DNA of 64,000 nucleotides. Source: Subtercola boreus (GTDB lineage Bacteria; Actinomycetota; Actinomycetes; Actinomycetales; Microbacteriaceae). A program made the translations under genes and the position numbers. Under the pieces are notes generated by a model. The model was not told where the DNA came from. It worked only from the letters and a program-made list of their open reading frames with translations, and ran no database searches. Positions 35,554 to 41,497 of the stretch are shown here, piece by piece (the stretch's first letter is position 1; each line of letters starts with the position of its first letter). Location of the stretch: contig NZ_NBXA01000021.1 in the NCBI RefSeq assembly GCF_003399625.1, positions 186,001 to 250,000 on the forward strand, written 5' to 3'.

Positions 35554-35783
35554 CTTCTGGCTCCTCACGGGTTGTTACCTCAGACAATCTGTAGAACCCA
35601 TACAAGCATGAGTATGTTCCCACGATGTTACATTCGCCTGTGTTTCGCTCTGCGCGTAGCCGAGCCCTCTGGAGCGAGTGTCATCGCGGTGGATGATGGA
35701 TGATCTCACTAGGCTAAATCGTTGGGACGGGCTCCGCGCCCCCCTTGCCGTCATCTTCAGTCACGTCTCAGCTAGGAGCTCCT

Positions 35784-37871
35784 TTGGCATCGTCCGATTA
35801 CTCGGCCAGGCACCTGTCGGTACTGGAGGGTCTCGAGGCGGTGCGGAAACGCCCCGGAATGTACATCGGCTCGACCGGACCCAAGGGTCTGATGCACTGC
35901 CTGTGGGAGATCATCGACAACTCAGTCGACGAGGCGCTCGGCGGCCACGGCAACGAGATCTCCATCACCCTCCACGCCGACAACAGCGTGGAGGTGCGTG
36001 ACCGGGCCCGCGGCATCCCGGTCGACATCGAGCCCCGCACGGGCCTCAGCGGTGTCGAAGTGGTGTTCACGAAGCTCCACGCCGGCGGAAAGTTCGGGTC
36101 GGGATCGTACGCCGCATCCGGAGGCCTGCACGGCGTGGGCGCCTCGGTGGTGAACGCGCTGAGCGAGCGGCTCGACGTGGAAGTGGATCGCGACGGCAAG
36201 ACGTTCGCGATGTCCTTCCATCGAGGCGAGCCGGGCAACTTCGCCGACGCCGATCCGGCGACTCCCTCTCCGCGTTCTCCCTTCACACCCTTCGAGAACC
36301 AGAGCGAGCTGCGGGTGGTGGGCAAGGTGAAGCGCGGTGTCACAGGCACGCGCATCCGGTACTGGGCCGACCCCCAGATCTTCACCGAATCGACAGAGTT
36401 CCAGACCTCGGAGCTCATCGACCGGGCCCGGCAGACGGCCTTCCTGGTGTCGGGCCTGGCTCTCGACATCACCGACAACCGCGGCGAAGTGCCCCTCCAC
36501 GAGTCGTTCAAGTACGACGGTGGCTTGGCCGAGTTCGTCGACTTCCTGGCTCCGGATGCCCCGCTGACCGACACCTGGCGTCTCGAAGGGGCCGGCACCT
36601 TCACCGAGACCGTGCCGGTGCTGAGCGACGCCGGGGCGATGGTGCCCACCGAACTCACGCGCGACTGCGCGGTGGACATCGCCCTCCGCTGGGGAACCGG
36701 CTACGAGACCGAACTCAAGACCTTCGTCAACATCATCTCCACGCCGAAGGGCGGCACGCACCTCGCCGGATTCGAGGCGGGGCTGCTGCGCTTTCTCCGC
36801 AAGACCGTCGAGGACAATGCGCGTCGGCTGAAGGTCGGCAACGACAAGCTCGACAAGGAGGACGTGCTCGCCGGGCTCACCGCGGTGCTCACCGTGCGCC
36901 TGCCCGAGCCGCAGTTCGAGGGGCAGACGAAGGAAATCCTCGGCACGCCCGCTGTGCGGGCGATCGTCACCTCTGTGGTGACCAGGACGCTCACCGAACG
37001 GTTCTCTTCGACGAAGCGCGACGACAAGACGCAGACCGCCCTGGTGCTCGACAAGGTCGTCGCCGAGATGAAGTCGCGCATCTCCGCCCGGGCCCACAAG
37101 GAGACACAGCGCCGCAAGAACGCGCTCGAGAGCTCGTCTCTCCCCGCCAAACTGGTCGACTGCCGCTCGAGCGACGTGACGGGCAGCGAACTGTTCATCG
37201 TGGAGGGCGACTCCGCCCTCGGTACGGCCAAGCAGGCCCGCAACAGCGAATTCCAGGCGCTGCTGCCGATCCGGGGCAAGATCCTGAACGTCCAGAAGGC
37301 CTCCGTGAGCGACATGCTCTCGAACGCCGAGTGCGCCTCGATGATCCAGGTGATCGGCGCAGGATCCGGCCGCACGTTCGACCTCTCTGCCGCGCGCTAC
37401 GGCAAGATCATCCTGATGAGCGACGCGGATGTCGACGGAGCGCACATCCGCACCCTGCTGCTGACCCTGTTCTTCCGGTACATGCGGCCGATGATCGACG
37501 CCGGACGCGTGTTCGCCGCGGTACCGCCGCTGCATCGTGTGGTCGTGATGAACCCCGGAACCAAGCCGAACGAGACGATCTACACGTATTCCGAGGCTGA
37601 ACTGAACGGCGTGCTGGCGGGCTTGAAGAAGACGAACAAGAAGTACCAGGACCCCATCCAGCGCTATAAAGGCCTCGGCGAGATGGACGCCGACCAGCTC
37701 GCGCTCACCACGATGGACAAGGCGCACCGCATGCTCCGCCGGGTGCGGGTGGATGATGCCGCCGCCGCCGAGCGTACCTTCGAGCTGCTCATGGGCGACG
37801 ACGTGGCCCCCCGCAAGGAGTTCATCATCGCGGGCAGCGACACCATGTCGAAGGACCGCATCGACACGTAG
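35784..37871 (+). CDS. parE: DNA topoisomerase IV / gyrase-type subunit B
   Basis: GHKL ATPase subunit, 695 residues. The N-terminal region has RPGMYIGSTGPKGLMH, the ATP site EIIDNSVDEAL and GGLHGVGASVVNAL. The Toprim domain has LFIVEGDSALGTAKQARN and MSDADVDGAHIRTLLLT, and the C-terminal end contains QRYKGLGEMDADQL. TTG 35784 is selected because AGGAG (35774-35778) precedes it by five bases; the next in-frame start, TTG 35745, lacks such a site. It pairs with the subunit A encoded upstream. Confidence 0.9.
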   Translation: MASSDYSARHLSVLEGLEAVRKRPGMYIGSTGPKGLMHCLWEIIDNSVDEALGGHGNEISITLHADNSVEVRDRARGIPVDIEPRTGLSGVEVVFTKLHAGGKFGSGSYAASGGLHGVGASVVNALSERLDVEVDRDGKTFAMSFHRGEPGNFADADPATPSPRSPFTPFENQSELRVVGKVKRGVTGTRIRYWADPQIFTESTEFQTSELIDRARQTAFLVSGLALDITDNRGEVPLHESFKYDGGLAEFVDFLAPDAPLTDTWRLEGAGTFTETVPVLSDAGAMVPTELTRDCAVDIALRWGTGYETELKTFVNIISTPKGGTHLAGFEAGLLRFLRKTVEDNARRLKVGNDKLDKEDVLAGLTAVLTVRLPEPQFEGQTKEILGTPAVRAIVTSVVTRTLTERFSSTKRDDKTQTALVLDKVVAEMKSRISARAHKETQRRKNALESSSLPAKLVDCRSSDVTGSELFIVEGDSALGTAKQARNSEFQALLPIRGKILNVQKASVSDMLSNAECASMIQVIGAGSGRTFDLSAARYGKIILMSDADVDGAHIRTLLLTLFFRYMRPMIDAGRVFAAVPPLHRVVVMNPGTKPNETIYTYSEAELNGVLAGLKKTNKKYQDPIQRYKGLGEMDADQLALTTMDKAHRMLRRVRVDDAAAAERTFELLMGDDVAPRKEFIIAGSDTMSKDRIDT

Positions 37872-37999: not shown

Positions 38000-38815
38000 C
38001 TATTCGCTGAGGGGGGCCGCGGCGATGGTGTCGCGCGCCTTGGATGCGCGGCGGTCGATCTCGGCGAGCGAGGGCGGCGCGGCGGGCAGGGTCTCGCCGC
38101 GACGCGCCAGCGCCGCCGTGAGCAGCCAGTCCGCGAGGGCGGGGTTGTTCGCAAGAACCGGGCCGTGCAGGTGGGTTCCCACCAGGTTGCCGACCCAGTA
38201 CCCCTCGACCCGATCATCTGGTGCCACCCGCACGGTGCCCTCGGCCGTCGCACCCGAGGCCGCGACGGCTGCGGCACCCGCAGAGGCTCCCGGCCCTGTC
38301 GCCGCGACGTTGCCCCGGCCGTAGACGACGTGGCCGATCGGCGCCGCGTCCCGGATGTCGACGTACGATCCACGGTTCTCGAACCCGACGAGCGTGCCGA
38401 GCACAGGCGACGAGACGACGAAGTCGCCCACCACGCGCTCTCCCGCGACCGTGGTCGTGACCGGGTAGACCCCGGCACCGGCGAGCACCGTACCGTCGGC
38501 GAGCGTCACCGTCTCACCGAGCAGCTGGAAGCCGGCGCCGACCGCGAGGAAGGGCACATCGTGGGCGGCCAGCGCGCGAAGCGGAGGCGCGACCACGCTC
38601 AGGTACGGGTGCGTCTGGAGTTGTGCCGAGACGGGGCCGCTTCCGATGAACACCAGGTCCACCGCAGCGGGCAGAGAATCGCCGTCTTCGTAGCGCTTCA
38701 CGTTCACGCTGAGACCGCGGGCCTCGGCACGGTGGACGAGGATGTCGACGTTGCCGTTCTCCCCGTTCATCCCGAGGGTGCGCGGGAACAGATGCAGGAT
38801 ATTCAGATCCGTCAT
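38000..38815 (-). CDS. gatD: GatD-like glutamine amidotransferase subunit lacking the catalytic cysteine
   Basis: A 271-residue protein of the GatD/CobB-CobQ class I amidotransferase fold. Family GatD hydrolyses glutamine and passes ammonia to MurT, which amidates the alpha-carboxyl of D-Glu in lipid II. The N terminus (LHLFPRTLGMNGENGNVDIL), GFENRGSYVDI and the histidine block GTHLHGPVLANNPALADWLL fit GatD. The nucleophile elbow, normally C-x-G-x-Q, reads VGAGFQLLG, placing Gly93 where Cys should be (codon GGC). The whole protein has no cysteine. It cannot be a normal glutaminase unless another residue substitutes. Its start overlaps the murT stop by four bases. See findings for the proposed new role. 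Confidence 0.85.
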   Translation of the reverse strand: MTDLNILHLFPRTLGMNGENGNVDILVHRAEARGLSVNVKRYEDGDSLPAAVDLVFIGSGPVSAQLQTHPYLSVVAPPLRALAAHDVPFLAVGAGFQLLGETVTLADGTVLAGAGVYPVTTTVAGERVVGDFVVSSPVLGTLVGFENRGSYVDIRDAAPIGHVVYGRGNVAATGPGASAGAAAVAASGATAEGTVRVAPDDRVEGYWVGNLVGTHLHGPVLANNPALADWLLTAALARRGETLPAAPPSLAEIDRRASKARDTIAAAPLSE

Positions 38816-40095
38816 GCCTGCCCACCGCCTTCCAGCTCCTTGAAGCCGAGGATCTTGCGGATCCCCATCATCTGTTCGTAGTTCAGGATCATCGTCTTCC
38901 GGCCGCTCGCGGGGCGCGGCAACGCGAGGAACTGCTTCACGGCCGCGCGCACATCGAGATCGACCGTTCCGACCGGGATGCCGGCATACCCGAGGCGCAC
39001 CGCGAACTGCCAGGCCTTCGACCCCGTGATCACGTCGACATGCGACAGGCTCGACAGGTCGATGTCGTAGATCCACGACGGATCGGGGGTGCCCTCGTCG
39101 ATCGCCATGAAGACCTGCTCAGGCTGGGTCTCGAGCGAGTCGAGGTTCAGCTGGAGGCTGGCGGGGTTCTTCATCATGATGATCTCGATGCTCTCGCCGT
39201 CGACCTCCAGGAGCTCGCCGCGACCGTAGACCGTCGTGAGCCCGCCGAGGGCCGAGGTGACCTTCTCGGCACGGAAGTCGGCACCGAGCACGGAGCGGGC
39301 CGTGGCGGCTGCGCCCGCGGCATCCAGAGCGTAGTGCAGGCCACGCGCGGGGAGCCGCACGTCGATCTGCTGACCGTCGATGCTGAGGGTCGCACTCGAG
39401 TCGCCGAGCGCGGTGACGGTCACGGCGGCTTCGCGCGTACCGGCGGCCGCGTGGGCGTCGCCGAAACGATCGGCGGAGGCCACGCCATGGACCGCTCCGG
39501 AGATGAGCTCGGCAGAGGCACCGAAGAAGGCGACGTCCCTGCTGCCCGGAATGCGCTTGTCCATGTCGACGAGATGGTTGTCGTCACGGTTCAGGATGAG
39601 CGAGGTGGTGGCCGTCATGGCGACCTGTTCGAGCATCCGCACGACCCGGTCGGGCTCGTGGTAGCGGTTCAACTGGTCGATCTGGATGTTCAGCAGCAGC
39701 ACAGTGCGCGGCTTCAGCAGCTTCGCAAGTTTTGGCCCATACCCCTCGTCGACTTCGAGGATCGCGATGTCGGCGTCGAGGCGCCCGTTCAGAGCCACCT
39801 GCGAGAGTACAGACGAGGCGATGCCCTGCGGCAGGTTTCCGCCGGACGGGTTCGTGAACACCGTCAGGCCGTGCTCCCGGAGGATCGCCGCCAGCATGTT
39901 CGTGGTGGTCGACTTGCCGTTCGAGCCCGACACCGCGACGACTCCGCGCGGGATAGCAGCGATGGTGTCTTCGAGGAAGCGCGGCGCGATGCGGAGCGCG
40001 ACTGTACCGGGGATAGCAGATCCGCCGCCGCGCAGCCGTGCGGCAACCCGTACAGCGCGGCCGACTGCGACGGCCGCGCTGGTGCGAACTCCCAC
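38812..40095 (-). CDS. murT: MurT-like Mur ligase without zinc ribbon
   Basis: A 427-residue Mur-ligase-family protein with the MurT C-terminal domain (DUF1727). The P-loop is VAVSGSNGKSTTTNML, the Mg/ATP region is ILEVDEGYGPKLAKLL, and the C-terminal block is MMKNPASLQLNLDSL...DPSWIYDIDL. Characterised MurT proteins carry a Cys4 zinc ribbon in the middle domain; this one has no cysteine anywhere, and the corresponding part (around GAVHGVASADRFGDAHAAAG) looks unrelated. The usual DQLDRYGE block is DQLNRYHE. The start is GTG 40095, five bases after the sigA stop; the frame upstream to 40188 overlaps sigA and is rejected. It is probably co-transcribed with sigA and gatD. Confidence 0.85.
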   Translation of the reverse strand: MGVRTSAAVAVGRAVRVAARLRGGGSAIPGTVALRIAPRFLEDTIAAIPRGVVAVSGSNGKSTTTNMLAAILREHGLTVFTNPSGGNLPQGIASSVLSQVALNGRLDADIAILEVDEGYGPKLAKLLKPRTVLLLNIQIDQLNRYHEPDRVVRMLEQVAMTATTSLILNRDDNHLVDMDKRIPGSRDVAFFGASAELISGAVHGVASADRFGDAHAAAGTREAAVTVTALGDSSATLSIDGQQIDVRLPARGLHYALDAAGAAATARSVLGADFRAEKVTSALGGLTTVYGRGELLEVDGESIEIIMMKNPASLQLNLDSLETQPEQVFMAIDEGTPDPSWIYDIDLSSLSHVDVITGSKAWQFAVRLGYAGIPVGTVDLDVRAAVKQFLALPRPASGRKTMILNYEQMMGIRKILGFKELEGGGQA

Positions 40096-40099
40096 CGGT

Positions 40100-41413
40100 C
40101 TACTCGAGGTAGTCGCGCAGGGACTGCGACCGCGACGGGTGACGGAGCTTGGCCATGGTCTTCGACTCGATCTGGCGGATGCGCTCACGCGTCACACCGA
40201 ACGTGTCGCCGATCTGGTCGAGAGTCTTCGGCATGCCGTCCCCCAGGCCGAAGCGCATGCGGATGACGCCCGCTTCACGCTCGGACAGGGAGTCGAGCAG
40301 CGACTCGAGCTGCTTCTGCAGCATCGTGAAGCCCACGGCGTCGGCGGGGACGACCGCTTCGGTGTCCTCGATGAGGTCACCGAACTCGCTGTCGCCGTCT
40401 TCACCCAGAGGCGTGTGCAGCGAGATCGGCTCGCGGCCGTACTTCTGAACCTCGACGACCTTCTCGGGCGTCATGTCGAGCTCGCGGCTGAGCTCCTCGG
40501 GCGTGGGCTCGCGGCCCAGGTCCTGGAGCATCTGGCGCTGCACGCGGGCGAGCTTGTTGATGACCTCGACCATGTGCACCGGAATACGGATGGTGCGGGC
40601 CTGGTCGGCCATGGCGCGGGTGATGGCCTGGCGGATCCACCAGGTCGCATACGTCGAGAACTTGAAGCCCTTGGTGTAGTCGAACTTCTCGACGGCACGG
40701 ATGAGGCCCAGGTTTCCCTCCTGGATGAGGTCGAGGAACTGCATTCCGCGGCCGGTGTAGCGCTTGGCGAGCGAGACCACGAGACGGAGGTTGGCGCCGA
40801 GCAGGTGGCTCTTCGCTCGCTGTCCGTCTTTCGCGACCCACTGCAGCTCGCGCTTGGCGGACGGGCTGAGACCCTCGGAGTTCGCCAGCTTGTCTTCGGC
40901 GAACAGGCCCGCCTCGATGCGCATCGCGAGCTCGACCTCTTCGGCCGCGTTCAGCAGGGCGACCTTACCGATCTGCTTCAGGTAGTCCTTGACGGGGTCG
41001 GCCGTCGCGCCTGTGATGGCGCTCGAGTACACGGGCACGTCGTCGTCGTCGTCGACGAGCGACAGTACGAGCGCACCGGTCGGCAGGGCCTCGGTCGCCG
41101 CGCTCTTGGGGCTGTCGTCGTCGGAGTCGTCGTCGCCCGTTGCAGCGGCATCACCGTCGACGGCAGCCTCGCCCTCGGCTACGACCACAACGGCGTCGTC
41201 AGTGGCGTCAGTCTCGAGCTCGCCGGCGTCGACCGCATCCTCTTCTTCGGAGTCGGGATCGGACTTCGCCTTGCTGGCCGTCGCCCTGCCCTTGGCAGCT
41301 GTCTTCGTGGCTTTCGGAGCCGCCGTCTTGGCGGGGGTCTTGACTGCCGCCTTCGCGGCAGTGGAGGTCTTCGTGGCGGCGGCTTTTGCCGCAGGAGCCT
41401 TCGTGGTGGCCAT
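40100..41413 (-). CDS. rpoD: Primary sigma factor SigA/RpoD
   Basis: A 437-residue sigma-70 protein. The N-terminal 130 residues are Lys/Ala-rich and then strongly acidic ([26 protein letters not shown]). Region 1.2 starts [15 protein letters not shown]; region 2 has [20 protein letters not shown] and the -10-binding [18 protein letters not shown]. Region 3 follows, and region 4.2 ends [20 protein letters not shown]. Such a tail is typical of actinobacterial housekeeping sigma factors. ATG 41413 is chosen for AAAGGTG seven bases upstream; the longer ATG at 41422 has no such site. The upstream gap contains an inverted repeat at 41498-41522. Confidence 0.95.
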
Positions 41414-41497
41414 ATGGATCACCTTTCACACGGGAAGAGGTTGCGATGGGACGTAAGAGATCTGCGCCCCCGCGCCACTGTCACCCAGAGTTGTTTT

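Follow-up and report, generated by a model that had tools for sequence, protein, structure and literature searches.

What a MurT-GatD pair could do once its glutaminase subunit has lost the catalytic cysteine is the question raised by a locus in the 64,000-nucleotide stretch of DNA analysed here (the window). Homologues of the two subunits of lipid II isoglutaminyl synthase lie between sigA and parE, a position referred to below as the sigA-parE slot, and the relevant features are as follows.

35745..37871, plus strand: parE/gyrB-like topoisomerase subunit B, the other border of the sigA-parE slot
38000..38815, minus strand: GatD homologue without the catalytic Cys, 271 aa (stop codon included in the coordinates), assigned by reading of the open frame, Pfam and structure match
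38537..38539, minus strand: codon GGC for Gly93, at the position that in S. aureus GatD is Cys94, the Cys of class I glutaminases
38812..40095, minus strand: MurT homologue without Cys, with a GTG start and an ATGA overlap with gatD
40100..41422, minus strand: sigA (rpoD), directly upstream of MurT and a conserved neighbor of the Cys-less pair

The gatD start overlaps the end of the MurT gene at 38815-38812, and MurT begins at 40095, four bases past the sigA stop codon. The initial annotation had proposed from a set of motifs that this pair could be a cross-bridge ligase of group B peptidoglycan, and all of those motifs were reread in the window. The two proteins together contain zero cysteines, the GatD nucleophile elbow reads VGAGFQ with Gly93 where Cys is expected, and HLHGP with the catalytic His (H189) is present. 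In MurT, the P-loop is intact, as are GSNGKSTTT and DPSWIYDID, DQLDRYGE is changed to DQLNRYHE, and the P-loop Lys, acceptor Asn, Mg residues, and Asp349 are all in place. Pfam matched the pair (PF07685, 53.9 bits with a cut-off of 27; PF08245, 50 bits with a cut-off of 24; PF08353, 38.1 bits with a cut-off of 25), and scores against the NCBIfam isoglutaminyl-synthase models, which may be narrow, were far under the cut-offs for both GatD (113.3/450 and 82.2/400) and MurT (108.3/800 and 103.6/800). The structure of GatD predicted by AlphaFold (pLDDT 90.4) had S. aureus GatD (6gs2) as its best PDB match (E value, 3.4e-24; TM 0.80/0.87), and as modeled the protein folds as GatD.

Gene order, folds, and the P-loop are common to the window pair and the lipid II isoglutaminyl synthases of S. 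aureus (6gs2), S. pneumoniae (6fqb), and S. pyogenes (9sq9), as are the carboxylate-binding Asn, the intersubunit-triad Asp and, in the window, the GatD His. The window pair differs in its GatD Gly nucleophile, its missing zinc ribbon, a changed GatD-facing loop, and its fixed place between sigA and parE. Since changing Cys94 of S. aureus GatD to Ser or Gly is reported to abolish amidation (PMC6113224, PMC6085368), amidation via glutamine should be impossible for the window pair. Loss of the MurT Cys4 zinc ribbon had initially been counted as part of the change. The ribbon is absent in the window, but many pairs of the same order that do have the Cys likewise showed no CxxC..CxxC, and the loss was rejected as a marker of changed function; the ribbon is reported to occur in a subset of bacteria only (PMC6113224). 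MurT_C and MurT profile searches of the window genome, a 98.7% complete draft, identified no second canonical pair, a check that the initial annotation had proposed. There was one MurT_C match and one strong MurT profile match (6e-190), and the other four profile matches (best, 8e-14) scored as ordinary Mur ligases do.

Group B peptidoglycan, a class recognized since 1972, has its bridge on the D-Glu carboxyl that MurT-GatD amidates. To our knowledge, no enzyme is assigned to the defining bond of this wall type, and a literature search found neither a MurT-GatD assigned to it nor a description of an exchangeable ligase locus. Group B is reported for Subtercola, Agreia, Frondihabitans, Clavibacter, and Rhodoluna; L-Lys, D-Orn, and diaminobutyrate are listed as diamino acids of Microbacterium, and the split-off genus Paramicrobacterium is described with a B2 wall. 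The other Microbacteriaceae genera of the named set described below are generally assigned to group B as well. MurE of the window genome (L080, G000:C18, in the dcw cluster) reads DFHPR instead of DNPR, which we take to be the motif of the meso-DAP type, as would fit a residue other than DAP at position 3. The MurE motif was tried as a discriminator between groups A and B and set aside, as all five sequences compared read D-x-(H/N)-P-R, including those of G014, which has a canonical pair, and G049, in which no ligase was found. The named locus closest to that of the window was from Subtercola boreus (identities of 88.6% for MurT, 84.0% for GatD, and 93.8% for ParE), and Subtercola is reported to have a B2gamma wall with diaminobutyrate, with 3-hydroxyglutamate in described species (PMC5945732). 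The genus of the closest named relative has the wall group that the initial annotation had presumed.

The distribution of the pair was surveyed in 60 genomes (59 genera) of the family of the window, the Microbacteriaceae, and MurT was identified in 49 of them by profile search (E value of ≤1e-40). The MurT-GatD operon has been said to be universally present in Actinobacteria (PMC6085368); here, at the thresholds used, no MurT match was obtained in 11 of the 60 family genomes or in 98 of 119 genomes of a single genus. Pairs were read from the survey genomes and from four further genomes of the family, giving 42 slot loci of one class group and three of a second clade. sigA was seen at 41 of the 42 and at all three, respectively, and only ParE was seen at L027. 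The catalytic Cys was found in none of the 44 readable sigA-slot GatDs, window included (L073 had no readable GatD). Seven Cys-bearing pairs were identified in the family, one in each of six genomes and one in G054, where this canonical pair is the second besides a Cys-less one, and none adjoined sigA. Two divergent Cys-less pairs (L044 and L075) lay outside the slot. From other families, 55 pairs were hand-picked over families with divergent ones favored (16 of 41 MurT genomes outside the family and 39 of 109 outside the order); 49 carried both Cys and the catalytic His and six lacked both, with five of the six from one genus. Cys loss and the sigA-slot position go together.

In a MurT tree of 74 pairs, including 31 of the 42 slot-clade loci, the slot clade formed one side of a branch with an SH-aLRT of 100. 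The second slot clade, a separate Cys-less MurT-GatD lineage in the sigA-parE slot of three genomes, grouped (SH-aLRT, 95) with both divergent pairs and with four of the six Cys-less pairs from outside the family, and the Cys-bearing pairs of the family branched among those of other families. Two Cys changes suffice on the whole tree, one of them being that of the sigA-slot clade. The second Cys-less clade, as represented outside the family (L096, L104, L105, and L122 to L124), has elbows like FTGNAPEVL and has lost the His; its DQLDR and SWIYD motifs are changed and its zinc-ribbon motif is kept. Genus g197 of this clade may be Collinsella, a guess on our part. A unique wall type has been described for Collinsella (PMC4149003). 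The shortest GatDs read, at about 196 to 206 aa, were in the sigA slot of L043, L046, and L072, from genomes of about 1.4 to 1.5 Mb.

Named records were searched using the MurT motifs of the Cys-less classes, so that the GatD elbow played no part in selection, and 336 loci were confirmed. The best 80 of these 336, ranked by similarity to the Cys-less classes, were analyzed; some come from the same genomes as the 60-genome survey, as judged by six contigs of equal length, and the two sets are not independent. The 80 bear 29 Microbacteriaceae genus names, with a few records under other titles (Planococcus sp. APC 4015, an uncultured Cellulomonadaceae, and an Actinomycetes bacterium). An elbow Cys was present in 0 of these best 80 of 336 (69 G, 8 A, 2 N, and 1 S), and the MurT residues K62, N88, D117, E118, D141, R145, and D339 (P0002 numbering), comprising the P-loop Lys, the acceptor Asn, both Mg acids, the loop Asp and Arg, and the triad Asp, were identical in 80/80. 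Within the same best 80, the distance from sigA to the MurT match downstream of it was at most about 50 nt at 73 loci and 0.57 to 1.04 kb at six, and one contig ends first. At L229, the GatD read stands 7 kb from MurT.

These genes could be decaying remnants of an amidation system, and several observations from relatives would fit such a history. GatD identity was below that of MurT in 17/17 pairs of relatives, down to 55% within one genus; selection on GatD was the weaker, with a dN/dS above that of MurT in 15 of the 17; the catalytic His was lost in 35 and kept in 45 of the best 80 of 336 named loci; and in each of G013, G047, and G048 the profile search flagged a single internal stop codon in the part of MurT that it matched. 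Decay is nevertheless very improbable. Across the same 17 pairs of relatives, dN/dS was 0.06 to 0.47 for GatD and 0.02 to 0.30 for MurT, and the pair is kept in genomes of 0.9 to 1.8 Mb (G010, G013, G015, G027, and G030). For the window pair, comparison with a congener gave values of 0.064 for GatD and 0.074 for MurT, and by this measure it is under purifying selection with no decay, in agreement with the original view, based on the overlapping open frames, that the pair is maintained. As GatD is under purifying selection, it appears to be needed, perhaps to hold the acceptor.

A second type of ligase was found to take the place of the pair. A CofE-like protein (PF01996) was identified in seven of the 11 family genomes without MurT versus one of the 49 with MurT (Fisher p 6e-6). 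Six of the seven genes lie behind sigA, the one in G020 after an aminotransferase, and that of G044 is on a contig without sigA in view. The slot protein scored 34.9 bits against a TIGR01916 cut-off of 180.65 and was therefore not filed as a true CofE. The F420 gamma-glutamyl ligase family to which it belongs consists of carboxylate-amine ligases, and its fold is unrelated to that of MurT-GatD. One large genus, represented by the 119 genomes mentioned above, gave the same picture, with MurT in 21, the CofE-like protein in 98, no overlap, and no genome without either. This genus is probably Microbacterium; MurT of two of its genomes (G097 and G170) was 84 to 85% identical to that of Microbacterium arabinogalactanolyticum. 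The chance of such a 21/98 non-overlap would be 9e-24 for independent genomes, and shared ancestry makes the real figure larger. Positions within this genus were inspected for nine CofE and two MurT loci, and all nine of the former follow sigA. On the weakly resolved species tree, the six CofE genomes need six changes, and the starred branches force four. The exception to the exclusion is G053, the only one of the 60 genomes with both ligases, in which divergent genes for a CofE-like protein, MurT, and GatD are adjacent (L044, G053:C1:609000-615500). CofE-like domains were also identified in eight of 119 genomes of the order outside the family, within larger proteins and all from two other families. 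At L259, L260, and L261 (family f12) the domain stands, by eye, behind an apparent asparagine synthetase B domain, and the match in family f18 is inside a 1016-aa frame.

Genes of the F420_ligase, ATP-grasp (PF14397), alanine-racemase, and EctB types were identified in the slots. An EctB-type diaminobutyrate aminotransferase was present in those of G020 and G057 (in G057 by likeness to the G020 protein), and among the best 80 of 336 named loci, 32 had racemase-like matches near the pair and one an EctB-like match. Neither a racemase nor an aminotransferase was found in the sigA-parE slot of the window. Where alanine-racemase-like slot genes occur in tandem (L153, L156, L157, L160, L161, L163 to L165, L167, and L169), the full copy keeps the PLP lysine, as it does in 13/13 slots read, and in the 10 slots where the motif of the second paralogue was readable, this lysine is replaced by Arg, Ser, Gly, or Thr; judged by these residues, the tandem genes possibly encode a heteromeric racemase with a pseudo-subunit. 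A cassette racemase was rejected as a simple predictor of a D-amino acid bridge, as the Clavibacter, Agromyces, and Curtobacterium loci have no slot racemase match. D-isomers occur in the walls of Agromyces and Curtobacterium. They are also reported for the Clavibacter wall (PMC9603630).

That a CofE-like ligase can replace the pair, and that their slot holds racemase-like genes in some genomes and rarely an aminotransferase gene, is best explained if the pair is the ligase that joins the bridge amino acid to D-Glu. The Cys-less pair is thus probably a carboxylate-amine ligase of group B assembly that places the bridge amino acid on the D-Glu alpha-carboxyl. MurT, with its P-loop, Mg2+ residues, and acceptor-carboxylate Asn intact, would phosphorylate the alpha-carboxyl of D-Glu or 3-hydroxy-Glu in a wall precursor, probably lipid II, and the amino group of the bridge amino acid, rather than ammonia, would attack the acyl phosphate. 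Such an acyl-phosphate amide ligation with an amino acid nucleophile is the reaction of MurC-MurF, from which MurT differs in having no UDP-binding N-terminal domain, as reported (PMC6113224), and in its partnership with GatD. In the Subtercola-like organism of the window the acceptor would most likely be diaminobutyrate, as in a B2gamma wall, and elsewhere it could be Orn, Lys, or Gly. GatD would be a pseudo-glutaminase, retained for a structural role and perhaps to bind the acceptor. The initial proposal as a whole is partly supported; its core, namely activation of the D-Glu carboxyl by MurT, an amino acid acceptor, and a GatD that is no longer a glutaminase, is supported by distribution, slot synteny, the invariant MurT residues, and mutual exclusion with the CofE-like ligase.

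The slot as a whole would be a cross-bridge cassette in which the Cys-less pair, the second Cys-less lineage, or a CofE-like ligase equivalent to the pair serve as alternatives; in some genomes the amino acid would be provided by racemase-like genes and, rarely, by a diaminobutyrate aminotransferase. We lean slightly toward this wider reading, in which an exchangeable slot ligase builds the group B bridge of Microbacteriaceae and is partly fed by a racemase pair with one paralogue lacking the PLP lysine. More than one ligation step may exist, as the slots of G001, G020, G023, and G057 hold an ATP-grasp gene together with a CofE-like gene, an ATP-grasp gene lies beside the Cys-less MurT in G009, G018, and G032, and the CofE-like and MurT-GatD genes of G053 adjoin. 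The pair could accordingly act on another carboxyl of the precursor, a second bridge residue, or a non-wall molecule, with GatD only a scaffold. We consider this unlikely, as the carboxylate-binding Asn is invariant, the near-perfect exclusion with the CofE-like protein favors one common step, and MurT-GatD enzymes are reported to act on the D-Glu alpha-carboxyl (PMC6113224).

The same invariant residues, including the third triad residue D339 in 80/80 (best 80 of 336), would also suit a MurT that still makes D-isoglutamine from free ammonia with the glutaminase dispensable, and amidated D-Glu is reported among Clavibacter muropeptides (PMC9603630). Amidation of the bridge-carrying carboxyl would, however, block cross-linking at that stem, and replacement of an amidase by a CofE-like ligase would be unexpected. 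The MurT loop facing GatD is described as lining the proposed ammonia channel (pneumococcal residues 135 to 143; PMC6085368), and residue 144, which corresponds by motif to pneumococcal D139, is D in 14 of 42 slot pairs versus 49/49 canonical pairs outside the family. This last argument is weak because D139A is reported to have had only a minor effect in the pneumococcus (PMC6085368). Overall, an ammonia-dependent amidase appears rather improbable, and ligation of a bridge amino acid is preferred.

Several genomes of the family do not fit a simple scheme. No MurT or CofE-like ligase was found in the slot of 11 of the 60; in nine, parE follows sigA with no large gene between, whereas G049 has transporter genes and G053 only racemase-like genes after sigA. 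Canonical Cys pairs lie at other sites in six of these 11, G005 and G053 have a divergent Cys-less pair away from the slot, and profile searches of G019, G049, and G051 found neither MurT nor a CofE-like protein. The weakly resolved species tree places seven of them (G003, G005, G014, G019, G024, G047, and G051) in a single clade. sigA was not found in G022 (87% complete). Group B walls in the genomes without a slot ligase would require a third ligase. The initial annotation had expected Cys loss to follow wall type. The loss is indeed non-random, with two changes on the tree, but there is no one-to-one link with group B, given these 11 genomes and the six Cys pairs among them, the use of the other ligase by most genomes of the Microbacterium-like genus, and the second Cys-less clade in other families. 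A canonical Cys-bearing MurT-GatD was also identified on a Leifsonia shinshuensis plasmid (L262, NZ_CP043642.1), whereas the named Leifsonia loci are Cys-less. The plasmid pair adjoins a gene annotated as an M15 metallopeptidase (predicted vanY-like, 38% identity) and metal-transport genes.

The locus thus probably contains an exchangeable ligase with a pseudo-glutaminase subunit, in which a glutamine amidotransferase has probably turned into an amino acid ligase through loss of its glutaminase activity. Annotating the sigA-slot pair of Microbacteriaceae as "lipid II isoglutaminyl synthase" is likely an error. For the bond that defines group B peptidoglycan, two unrelated candidate ligases and a locus can now be named, and the question of how this bond is made becomes a simple assay.
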